NCBI GenBank assembly: GCA_030141605.1
Contig: JAQGDQ010000810.1
Location: forward strand, 1-64,000
Direction: 5' to 3'
Length of the DNA: 64,000 bases
From: Tubiluchus corallicola
Lineage: Eukaryota > Priapulida > Priapulimorpha > Priapulimorphida > Tubiluchidae
Below are positions 1 to 16,209 of this stretch, one piece after another. The position numbers and the translations under genes are program-made. Below the pieces are notes generated by a model. That model was given only the letters and a program-made list of their open reading frames with translations. It did not search any database and was not told where the DNA came from. Each line of letters begins with the position of its first letter. The stretch's first letter is position 1.

Positions 1-654
1 TCTTGCGGTTTTAGCGTTAATTGAGCGGAATCTACGACCAGAGGGGGGCATTTCAAAATATTTATTACGTGGATGGAATATTGCGCTCTCTTTGCTACCC
101 TAGTTTCGTACAAATTTGCCAGAGATTGTTGTTCAACTCCTATAATTTTCAAGGCGGATTTAACAACTTGATCAAAAGCATTGTGATCTCCGTGAGTGGT
201 AGCGCCATCGTACCAAACAGTGAGGGATGTTATTAAGACGCTCTCAGTTACTGCATTAAAAACTTTCCACCCCATGGTCCAGCAGGAGAAATGTTAAGTG
301 ATTTCAGTCTACAACTTAGAAACTTGTATTGATGCGTCTCTTAAAAAGTACAGACGCTGGCGTGCCTTTTTTACTCAATAAAGCTTCCCATTTAAGATAC
401 AGATTAAAACATACTTATTTAAAATAGCATGCAATCTTTGAACTGACCAAATGATTTGTCGTTATTATGCTTGTATTTTGTAAATCTGTGTGTTTTTATG
501 TATTTACTTACTGTAATTTTGTGAAAATTTAGTAGGATTTCTGTTTAATCTTATAAACCTTTTTTGTAAGCTGATGATTTTAGAAATCTTTGTGAAGCGT
601 CTTTGAATATTGTCAGTTGTGTTGTCTATAGAGTTAGATGCTATACAAAATAAA

Positions 655-690
<36 letters not shown>

Positions 691-850
691 GTTATTGTTA
701 TTGTTATTTTTATTATTATTATTGTTATTATTATTATTATGTTATTGTTGTTTTTGTTATTATTATTATTATTAATATTATTATTATTATTTTATTATCT
801 ATTATTATTATTATTATTATTATATTATTATTATTATTAATATTATTATT
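1..850. repeat. Left arm of a large inverted repeat (rearranged LINE insertion)
   Basis: This stretch is the reverse complement of about 7074-7945. I found about three mismatches over the roughly 650 non-microsatellite bases, so identity is above 99%. Bases 1-236 hold, on the minus strand, the C-terminal end of a LINE reverse transcriptase. From about 290 onward the plus strand holds a LINE 3' untranslated region ending in an AATAAA-type signal and an (ATT)n tail. Having the reverse-transcriptase segment inverted against its own 3' end is the structure expected from twin-primed LINE insertion. The arm starts at the window edge and may extend further left. Confidence 0.85.
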
Positions 851-1010
851 ATTATTAATATTATTATTATTGTTATTATTACTATCATTATTATTATTAT
901 TATGTTATTATCATTATCATTATTATTATTATTATGTTATTGTTGTTTTTGTTATTATTATTGTTATTGTTATTATTATTATTATTATTATTAATATTAT
1001 TATTATTATT

Positions 1011-1047
<37 letters not shown>

Positions 1048-1049
1048 TA

Positions 1050-1080
<31 letters not shown>

Positions 1081-1142
1081 TATTATTATTATCATCATTA
1101 TCATTATTATTAATTATTATTATTATTATGTTATTGTTATTG
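650..1142. repeat. (ATT)n-rich microsatellite
   Basis: About 490 bp of imperfect ATT, GTT and CTT triplets. It starts as the tail of the LINE in the left inverted-repeat arm and runs on past the point where the right arm stops matching. Long leucine/isoleucine/tyrosine reading frames here are low-complexity artefacts. Confidence 0.9.
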
Positions 1143-1238
1143 TAAAACTCTCCATCTCAGCAGGGTGATGCCTTCATTGCTTTACCTTCCTCTTACGTCA
1201 TTTTATCGGTTTTCATCAGTGTTACGTTTCTTTCATAG

Positions 1239-1345
1239 ATCCCAGCAAAGTCGTTCACACGGAAGTGGCTCTCGTGCCGGACGAGTTTGACAGTTATCAA
1301 GTGGGAGTTGATGCGGACGTCACGTTCTGTTTGAAAGAGTTAAGG
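1239..1345 (+). CDS. RAD9: RAD9 exon (sixth of those found), on the inverted segment
   Basis: The exon follows TTTCATAG and ends before GTGGGT. It begins with two bases (AT) of a split codon and then encodes [20 protein letters not shown] and, further on, TFCLKELR. Human RAD9A has TFCLKEFR at the same place, in the second half of the PCNA-like clamp domain. The split codon is completed by the single G left at the end of the minus-strand exon 8841-8947, giving Asp after GluAspGluPro. The two exons therefore belong together although they are 7.5 kb apart on opposite strands. The family assignment is firm; the orientation is the anomaly. Confidence 0.93.
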
Positions 1346-13083: not shown

Positions 13084-13502
13084 CAGGGGTGTGCAAACTG
13101 CGGCCCGCCGAGAGATCTTGTGCGGCCCGCGAAGAGCTTTGTCAACGTAATGAAAGTGCGGCCCACGCGATCCAGCTGAAGTCTCCGCCAATATCGCGAA
13201 GATAGCGCGGGTAGTTTTTTCCTCTAGATCGGATGGCATTAACCCTTACAAGACCCTTGTCACTTAATGTCACTGTCGGACATGACGAAATATATGGTTT
13301 TTAATATAAATTTTAATAACTTCTAAAATAGTTTTTTGAGTGTAGTAGTGTAGTAGTAGTGATGATGTGCGCAAATCGGATGCAAAAAAAATCGTTACTA
13401 GGTCCTACTGTACTTGGCTCCTTGACCAAACTGCATGTGGCCCACAGGAATTGCGGGAATGTTTAATGTGGCCCGGCTAGTCAGATAATTTGCACACCTC
13501 TG
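13084..13502 (+). mobile_element. hAT MITE, copy 1
   Basis: The ends CAGGGGTGTGCAAACTGCGG and TTTGCACACCTCTG are inverted. The element is flanked by a perfect 8-bp duplication ATATAGCA (13076-13083 and 13503-13510), the hAT signature. The GCGGCCCGC-rich ends are typical of this MITE type. A second copy is at 21171-21630. Confidence 0.93.
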
Positions 13503-13510
13503 ATATAGCA

Positions 13511-14800
13511 CAACATTCAACTTCAACCAGAACAGGAATGGGTACATGCAACAGTAGATGCTAAGCAAACTGGAGATATCATTACAAAACTCCCAATCAC
13601 AGGATAGTATCACAGTTTTCAATTACACCAGTACGGATGTTAAACTATACAAATTTGGCGAGACGATAGCAATACGATACTTTTTTCCAACAATACGGTA
13701 GCGATAATCTATTTTATTAGCTGGTGCCGGCCATGGATAGATAGTCCGTTCAGCGGTGGGTGTGGTAGGCATATTTAGATTTCACGAGAGGGTCACGCCA
13801 TCCCGTAACGGGCGTTTCCTCGGACACAACTCATGATTTTTTCGAAATTTTGGAAACCAAGCAGCCTGCAGGAAAAACGTTCTAGCGGGGCCTGGTGGGA
13901 CTCTCAAAAGGAGATATATAGCTCTTTAGAAAGAGGAAGAACGGGGCTACACGATGATGTGGGCTATATTTTAGGACACGTCCACCAAAAGGAGTACCGA
14001 CGAGTTAATTACATGTTCTATTTCTGGCAATTTTCGCTTGGAAAACTGCTGGTGCAAAGCCATTGTTCTGACGTCATCCATTATACTCTGTCTGTAACCT
14101 TATAACTTTAATTCAGTAAAAGCTGCTGCTGGCTTTGCATTACGAGTGATGAATATGTAGGATGTTCGCACATTATTGATTATATATAAGTGTATTTATA
14201 CGCAAAATTTTTTGCGAGGCCTTTGCTAGTTAATAATTAAAATTATTAAGTGCTTCAGTGCATTCAGTACTCTATACTTAAATGGCTGTTAGTTGTGAAA
14301 CACAAGTTTGTTTACGATAATGATTCATACACAAGTAAACAGATAAACATACTACTAGGGCAAAAATATTTATCTATGTTACCTGCATACGACTGGGAAA
14401 GTGACACTAAGGATACGGTACAAAATACTTGACATTAGCCTGTCAGTGTCGAAGTACATAAAGGGGCCTCTATGCTTTGTCAGTATGATTCAGAATGAAG
14501 ATAGCCCTTATTGCCAGGCAAATGTACAAGAAAATGATTCGACTTGTGACAAGTTTATAATTTAAATAATTCTTTTTATTCACTAATTTGCATAATTACT
14601 GTAAATAAATGTAAAAGAAAAGTGAAGAGATTTTATAAAAGTAAGCGATTAGTAACGATGCGTGCCAATAATCGATAATTATCGATAGGTATCATTAGCG
14701 TCGACATCCCTAAGGCTTTAGTACCTATGATGAACGTTAAAATAACTTCGCCATCAACAAGATTTGAACTGGCAACTTTGAGCCTCAGTCAAGTTTTTTT
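13511..14800. other. RAD9 intron segment, possible old DNA transposon
   Basis: No exon is seen. CGATAGCAATACGATA near 13665 and, reversed, GGGATGTCGACGCTAATGAT near 14690-14712 resemble degenerate inverted ends of one element of about 1 kb. No duplication could be confirmed. A 90-codon frame at 13833-14105 shows no recognisable domain. Confidence 0.3.
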
Positions 14801-14809
14801 ACTTTTTTT

Positions 14810-15370
14810 TATTTTATTATTATCACATTCAGTACAATATAATGACATTAAGCACACAGTGACATCAAAATTATTACTTCATACTGTATCAAATTGTTAT
14901 GTTTCATTCACTATCGTTATCATAAAAGAATAGTTGTACTGCAGTGGGCTAGAGAAGCAAAGGCTTGTATAAGCCCACTGCCATGTGAACCCGATAAAAA
15001 AAGAATGGATTAGTGAACAAAAAAAAAGAACTGGGAGAAAGGTTAGATCACACAGGAAGGGTAGAAGGATGTGTTAGTGGAAATGGTAGGAAGAAAGATA
15101 GTAGATTGTGCGATGTTGACATCAGCTCTAAAGATTTATCAATGATGCCTTGTTTTGCATAATCTGTACCAGGATTGTGGTATGACTGCTGCAGTAGGTG
15201 TGGGAAATTAGGAAGTGTTGTACTTGTTGAGAATTATTGCTCTGTATTTCTTTTTAAATTTTTGAATTGGCTGAACAGTTTTTAATTCATCATTTATGTC
15301 ATTGCAAAGCGTTGGACCAACATTTGCAATGAATTGCCGTGCCACGTCTGTTCTACAGAAATTTACAAAT
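14810..15370 (-). mobile_element. LINE 3' end with broken reverse-transcriptase C-terminus
   Basis: On the minus strand, 15365 down to about 15230 encodes TDVARQFIANVGPTLCNDI then NDELKTVQPIQKFKKKYRAI and a stop. This matches the end of CR1/L2-like LINE proteins (FxxxxGPxxWNxIPxxI...SFKxxLKxxL). The 3' UTR that follows contains a stem CAGTGGGCT...AGCCCACTG near 14945-14985. A second copy of this UTR lies in opposite orientation at 28965-29245. Confidence 0.75.
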
Positions 15371-15423
15371 TAATAAAGCACTTTATAAACCTGCTAACCT
15401 AAAACACAAGTGATTAAACTTAC

Positions 15424-15561
15424 CTTCATGGCAATTTTGCATCTGACTGAATCTTCCTCGATATCAACAGCATCGCTAACGACAAATGACGCGAAAAATG
15501 TTCTTCTGAACAAAAAACACGCGTAGGCCGATCTGGATGAATTCACGGTTCTCAAGGCGAG
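15424..15561 (-). CDS. RAD9: RAD9 exon (second of those found)
   Basis: Forty-six codons on the minus strand between CATGTTTAG and GTAAGT. They encode [16 protein letters not shown] (identical to human RAD9A over these 16 residues), a diverged loop, then [10 protein letters not shown] (human LLRCKILMK). This is the heart of the first PCNA-like domain. RAD9 forms the RAD9-HUS1-RAD1 ring that is loaded at DNA damage in the nucleus and activates ATR through TopBP1. Both boundaries are phase 0. This exon alone is enough to name the gene. Confidence 0.97.
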
Positions 15562-16138
15562 CTAAACATGGAAATAAAAAGCTTGTGAAGTATTTAGTAA
15601 ACGAGCAGCGTTATTACAAAAAAAGAAATTGAAAACTATACCAAAATCGAATTTTTCATGAGCTGAACTGAAATTAAAATCAAAACTGAAATTCCTTTGA
15701 AAACTAATCAATTATGACACGAATATAAGTGTATATATACTGAACACTCCGTACAAGTTTGATTTTAAGAGATGAATTGGTTACTGTGCGTGATTAGCGA
15801 CAGCAGTTATGCAGCGCTGAGCCTGATTAGTGAATGAATAGGTGACCAACGGTTCAATATTCATTCCGGGTGGTTCCACATTGCATGCGTGTGTTTGTCT
15901 CATGAGGGAAGATGCATATGAATCTCATCTTGGTAGCCCACACATAATAACAAAAAAGTTCCAGTACCACCACCAGCTACATAGATCTACTAAGCTGTAT
16001 AGGTGAGTGCTGGATTCAAGTTTGCTCAGTGAAAACTGTAAAATTTACTATTGCAGGCAGTAAACGTGTTTTAACCACTGCTGGAAATTGAACTCAGGAC
16101 TTTGTTTTACCGTTACTACACGATTGCTAGATGCTTAC

Positions 16139-16209
16139 ACTTTCCTCCAGCGGTTCAAAGTACAACTCATCGCCGATCTTTGAGAGCGAATGAATGGCAC
16201 GAGCAAAAA
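16139..16209 (-). CDS. RAD9: RAD9 exon (first secure exon, near the N-terminus)
   Basis: On the minus strand the exon follows AATTTTAG and ends before GTAAGC. It encodes FARAIHSLSKIGDELYFEPL then EES; human RAD9A has [21 protein letters not shown] at residues about 15-36. It starts with two bases (TT), so the upstream exon must end with one base, most simply G for Val. The eight secure exons total 862 coding bases, about 287 residues. That covers almost the whole clamp domain of a family whose human member has 391 residues; the first dozen or so residues and the C-terminal tail are missing. Confidence 0.95.

Follow-up and report, generated by a model that had tools for sequence, protein, structure and literature searches.

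In this study, we have modeled the organization of the checkpoint gene RAD9 in the priapulid Tubiluchus corallicola (assembly GCA_030141605.1), based on a window that comprises bases 1-64000 of contig C932 (JAQGDQ010000810.1; 93,211 bases). The first base of the window is at the same time the first base of the contig. The minus strand encodes exons 1-6 of RAD9 (18898 to 8841), and the plus strand encodes exons 7-9 (1239-4143), a layout that lies far beyond chance. We propose that this flip, C932:1-7074, probably represents an inverted foldback join across one and the same repeat locus, and that RAD9 is collinear in the animal. A technical cause is the most likely one because the flip is located at the very end of the contig, in an assembly that contains other mirror-image joins. 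The RAD9 gene itself is most likely intact.

The two halves of RAD9

The RAD9 model consists of nine exons (Table 1). Spliced together, they give 896 nt with 298 codons and without a single stop codon, leaving 2 nt open after exon 9, as had also been claimed in a first-pass annotation of this DNA. The same annotation had delimited the two exon groups at 16209 and 8841 on the minus strand and at 1239 and 4143 on the plus strand, positions that are reproduced exactly by the spliced model. GT donors are present at all nine exons and AG acceptors at exons 2-9, and all junctions are in frame; the codon shared by exons 6 and 7 across the strand change is completed as described earlier. It is with the exons taken in this flipped order that a single intact frame is obtained.

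Homology searches were performed with a protein derived from exons 2-9, without exon 1, that carries a few read-through residues after exon 2 as well as a terminal K made from a split codon. The Pfam profile Rad9 (PF04139) is spanned as a whole, with positions 1-173 covered by the minus-strand exons and positions 178-253 of 253 by the plus-strand exons. The closest relative among the best 120 of 1068 proteins (E up to 0.001) is a RAD9A-like protein of Priapulus caudatus with 69% identity across 90% of the query, in which exon 6 corresponds to positions 157-191 and exon 7 to positions 192-227. The alignment with human RAD9A (3g65) also spans the join of exons 6 and 7 (E 1.4e-70). The two halves of RAD9 are thus complementary and the exons are real.

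Table 1. Elements of the split RAD9 locus and of its flanking repeats in the window.
Feature	Position	Strand	Remark
RAD9 exon 1	18865..18898	-	MKCIIPGINVK motif; added in the present analysis, outside the range of the first-pass annotation
RAD9 exon 2	16139..16209	-	protein match, spliced model
RAD9 exon 3	15424..15561	-	protein match, spliced model
RAD9 exon 4	11646..11760	-	protein match, spliced model
RAD9 exon 5	9805..9904	-	protein match, spliced model
RAD9 exon 6	8841..8947	-	last minus-strand exon; leaves codon G open
RAD9 exon 7	1239..1345	+	completes the exon 6 codon (GAT, D)
RAD9 exon 8	2969..3033	+	protein match, spliced model
RAD9 exon 9	3985..4143	+	2 nt left open
Arm 1 of inverted pair	1..886		starts at contig base 1
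Arm 2 of inverted pair	7070..7942		closest to arm 1 of all scored matches
ATT microsatellite tail beside arm 1	655..1141		continues toward exon 7
Shorter copy of the ATT tract in arm 2	7071..7289		stops at the join
Repeat A	7545..7970	+	inside another repeat (7107-7552 plus 7969-8101); arm-1 copy cut at contig base 1
28-bp minisatellite	5214..7074		13 copies of the exact consensus unit
Proposed false inverted join	7070..7074		minisatellite to ATT tract, 5-nt microhomology GATAG

The assembly (343.5 Mb, 2344 records) was searched with protein queries compared in six frames. The protein of exons 2-9 retrieved eight matches (all eight candidates scored), all of them on C932 and one per exon, and the full Priapulus RAD9 retrieved nine (11 scored), eight on C932 and a weak one on contig C1915 (E 0.116). 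A complete second RAD9 locus, named in the first-pass annotation as a case that would speak against a split gene, was sought in the searchable part of the 343.5-Mb assembly by these six-frame searches and not found, nor was any contig with collinear exons. The C-terminal tail, which in relatives contains GTPPSKKFKSLFFG, is missing from the model. No tail exon in the assembly was matched by the full Priapulus query, and a 48-amino acid tail query from Lingula gave no match either, which shows little for a short query that lacks a positive control.

Inverted arms, nested repeat and join

The displaced exons are flanked by two inverted arms, as the first-pass annotation had observed. When 1-886 is aligned with 7942-7070, 866 positions match, 6 differ and 15 are gap columns, the latter made up of one 12-base block (four ATT units) and three single gaps. 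The outer edge of arm 1, earlier taken as the edge of a repeat, turns out to be the first base of the contig. This base matches position 7942, which is situated in the interior of repeat A; consequently, the homology of the arms breaks off with the contig itself rather than at a repeat boundary.

A search of the assembly with bases 1-850 resulted in 49 matches, with the best 40 of 607 first-look candidates scored. Within this set, the two places on C932 match at 100 and 98%, while the third match reaches 89% and is limited to 377-843. The remaining matches, short pieces aside, cover either part of approximately 1-398 or part of approximately 391-850. In contig C1187 the two parts of the outer repeat are 27 bp apart, compared to about 440 bp in the window. 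The nested layout, with repeat A inserted in the outer repeat, is shared by both arms and absent from the other matches listed, so that the arms look like copies of one locus. Given this layout and an identity of 98% where the next scored copy has 89%, the simplest reading of the sequence is that both arms correspond to one genomic place, although a young inverted duplication would give the same picture. Independent insertion of one repeat family at two places was considered as a source of the arms and rejected, since the other listed copies have the parts separate and the nesting is confined to the arms. Repeat A has no Pfam match; it may resemble the end of a non-LTR reverse transcriptase. 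DNA searches with long stretches of the introns were dominated by other repeats.

Followed from exon 6, the sequence runs through the repeat and the ATT tract, makes an inverted jump of about 6 kb downstream to the minisatellite and continues via exons 9, 8 and 7, the ATT tract and the repeat to the end of the contig. Such a path has the shape of an inverted foldback chimera. The pentanucleotide GATAG at the join occurs in the minisatellite and also at two positions of the arm-1 ATT tract (886 and 1042). The exact 28-bp unit, which might have provided a link with another contig, was found 13 times in the assembly, in all cases on C932.

In the mechanism that we propose, the real locus would be composed of exon 6, a single cluster of nested repeats carrying a long ATT tail, exons 7, 8 and 9, and the 28-bp minisatellite. 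While the library was prepared or the contigs were assembled, a strand that proceeded leftward out of exon 6 would have crossed the repeat and, at GATAG within the ATT tract, jumped about 6 kb downstream to the opposite strand of the minisatellite. From there, it would have returned through exons 9, 8 and 7 into the same repeat, of either the other or the same allele, with the contig ending at base 1. The sequence shows the geometry, the copy numbers, the microhomology and further inverted duplications of the assembly; that the RAD9 join is absent from the DNA of the animal, and at which step it arose, is inferred.

Joins of this kind have precedents in the literature. Foldback artefacts of long reads are recurrent technical joins that are often missed by quality-control tools and, in the passages cited here, affect about 0.55-0.6% of nanopore genomic DNA reads and virtually none of PacBio HiFi (Heinz, Meyerson and Li 2026; PMC12870357). 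Similar to these foldbacks, C932 shows an inverted return over the same locus, and one read in the cited part of that work has about 2 kb between its passes; in contrast, the classifier described there requires a return within at most 200 bp, whereas C932 first jumps about 6 kb downstream (PMC12870357). Multiple displacement amplification (MDA) may provide another model: in the cited data of Lasken and Stockwell (2007), 406 of 475 chimeras were inverted; their segments tend to be separated by less than 10 kb, 93.5% of these inverted joins have complementary bases, and the jumps lead either up- or downstream (PMC1855051). The inverted orientation, the jump of about 6 kb and the microhomology of C932 resemble the MDA chimeras as presented there (PMC1855051). 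In addition, inverted-repeat chimeric reads occur in nanopore ligation libraries, as stated in the part of PMC13141652 on which we draw.

Recurrent inverted duplications and rival explanations

C932 is not the only contig of this assembly that carries an inverted duplication. We surveyed 20 contig starts (C1 to C381 in steps of 20; the first 10 kb of 18 contigs and the first 5 kb of two), in which 174,732 of the 190,000 letters are not N, for pairs with at least 97% identity over at least 200 bp. Three of the 20 carry an inverted pair. In C21, bases 1-2257 are inverted relative to 3961-6208 (98.7%), the sole pair of the survey that starts at base 1; in its full length of 2257 bp, this sequence was found nowhere but there, and the remaining matches cover inner repeats (best 40 of 2026 candidates scored). 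The pair of C261 (2305-3726 and 7870-9291, 99.3%) has an arm that partly matches a nearby tandem array, and the second arm of C361 (1309-2381 and 3928-5000, 99.5%) reaches the edge of the examined sequence. Direct pairs above the cut-off number 20, distributed over 4 of the 20 contigs and each inside one tandem array, while dispersed direct pairs occur in 0 of 20. Six interior pieces of 10 kb (60 kb, all from this window) contain neither type. Two weaker inverted pairs were left out, being below the 97% cut-off (C161, 93.7%, from base 49; C341, 91%, 278 bp).

Further mirrors were picked by eye in the match tables as equal-score pairs on the same contig (C1142, C2174 and C1539), all of them inverted and mirrored; C1142 stands outside the survey because it was chosen for its matches. 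The ends of C1142 (27,220 bp) mirror each other over 2.2 kb at 99%, with 1 mismatch and 20 gap columns. In C1539 (32,883 bp), the first 600 bases are the reverse complement of the last 600 (100%), and 11000-11599 mirrors 21286-21885, also at 100%. In C2174 (111,659 bp), the first 595 bases are mirrored (595/595) by a segment that ends at 82880 and is followed by N at 82881-82885, and 30000-30599 mirrors 52287-52886 at 99.3%. C1142, C1539 and bases 1-82880 of C2174 are thus self-mirroring at 99-100% at each sampled place and bounded by record ends or N. Provided that the sequence is mirrored between these places as well, it is difficult to account for mirrors 27 to 83 kb long other than as artefacts.

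Several points weigh against a foldback in C932. The entire analysis is based on the assembled sequence. The arms differ by 6 substitutions and in microsatellite length, so that either two alleles or copying errors are required. The GATAG microhomology sits in low-complexity sequence, and such evidence is weak in simple repeats. Unlike C1539, C932 is not a mirror over its whole length. Some of the survey pairs could be real young inverted repeats, since those of C261 and C361 do not start at base 1, and the interior control is weak because the frequency in the contig starts (3 in 174,732 letters) would predict only about one inverted pair there. Moreover, the near absence of foldbacks from PacBio HiFi, in the passages cited from PMC12870357, makes the reading weaker if this is a HiFi assembly.

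A real and recent inversion or inverted duplication, either fixed or heterozygous, could have disrupted RAD9 by template-switch repair with microhomology or by recombination between the arms, which we regard as unlikely. Microhomology joins and inverted duplications are generally known to form in cells as well, the divergence of the arms is that of alleles or young duplicates, and the inverted pairs of C261 and C361 are located away from contig starts. Yet such an event would need to be very young, given the intact frame and splice sites of exons 7-9, and it would happen to fall at the end of a contig, in an assembly with several structures of this type and with no backup copy of RAD9 found in it. 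Neither RAD9 exons nor the exact minisatellite unit were found on any other contig, and C932 ends inside arm 1. The alternative of an assembler that walked the block the wrong way between two real inverted intronic repeats, in a collinear gene, is somewhat less probable still. It agrees with the single intact frame in the flipped exon order and with the general experience that contigs frequently end in repeats, but it needs a second nested cluster about 6 kb away that differs by only 6 substitutions in 886 bp, where the other scored copies are at most 89% alike; arms of about 0.9 kb would also be short if long reads were used. The first-pass annotation had offered an inversion or an assembly error, the latter to be excluded first. 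Its suspicion of an artefact is now much the likelier of the two, whereas its mechanism of two real arms around a flipped block is less favored than a single locus in view of the 98% arms against 89% for the next copy, the nesting confined to the arms among the listed matches and the start of arm 1 at base 1.

That the layout is real, with RAD9 trans-spliced from transcripts of opposite strands or with a switchable inversion that turns the checkpoint gene off, is highly improbable. Exons on both strands are a feature of mod(mdg4) of Drosophila. For RAD9, the splice sites and phases are intact across exons 6 and 7, as a gene that is truly two-stranded and matured by trans-splicing of two pre-mRNAs would demand, and fusions of opposite-strand transcripts are reported in the part of PMC8324879 cited here. 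Nevertheless, the assembly context already accounts for the layout, and trans-splicing is the most improbable explanation that we have considered.

Further features and implications

The RAD9 region and its surroundings are rich in other repeats. A full-length match to 5S ribosomal RNA (10062-10180, plus strand, 100.9 bits) is present between exons 4 and 5 in the orientation opposed to that of exons 1-6 and may be either a gene or a 5S-derived repeat. A very abundant repeat of about 290 bp occupies 8400-8689, its scored copies being 91-94% alike (best 40 of 8370 first-look candidates), and members of one repeat family at 2112-2530, 4194-4658 and 16409-16873 (93-94% alike) are situated in RAD9 introns or beside exons. 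Numerous long minisatellites, whose units differ and measure 25 to 167 bp, are found at 26690-27565, 29767-30373, 43989-45887, 46609-48346, 52698-54211 and 61716-64000.

Two plus-strand open frames, 32860-34281 (474 codons) and 39288-41561 (758 codons), have no Pfam match and are perhaps large exons of a neighboring gene. None of the 9 neighboring open reading frames scanned, out of 66 listed, reached the Pfam cut-off, the TFCD_C domain being a weak hit (14.6 vs. 22.4 bits). COX1 had no match in the assembly as searched, hence no mitochondrial contig was seen. Elsewhere in the assembly, contigs C457, C628 and C2254 have the same repeat match at identical positions (239692-240149), which suggests that they share their first 240 kb, and the last 1,753 bases of C1933 (to 512740) equal the first 1,753 of C2123 at 99.8%, an unmerged contig overlap.

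The split of RAD9 is probably of no biological importance; its value is that of a warning, for which RAD9 makes a useful marker because its exon order reveals the error. Since the assembly contains mirror-image contigs and inverted joins, any inverted repeat, inversion, palindrome or duplicated gene described from it needs the support of reads.

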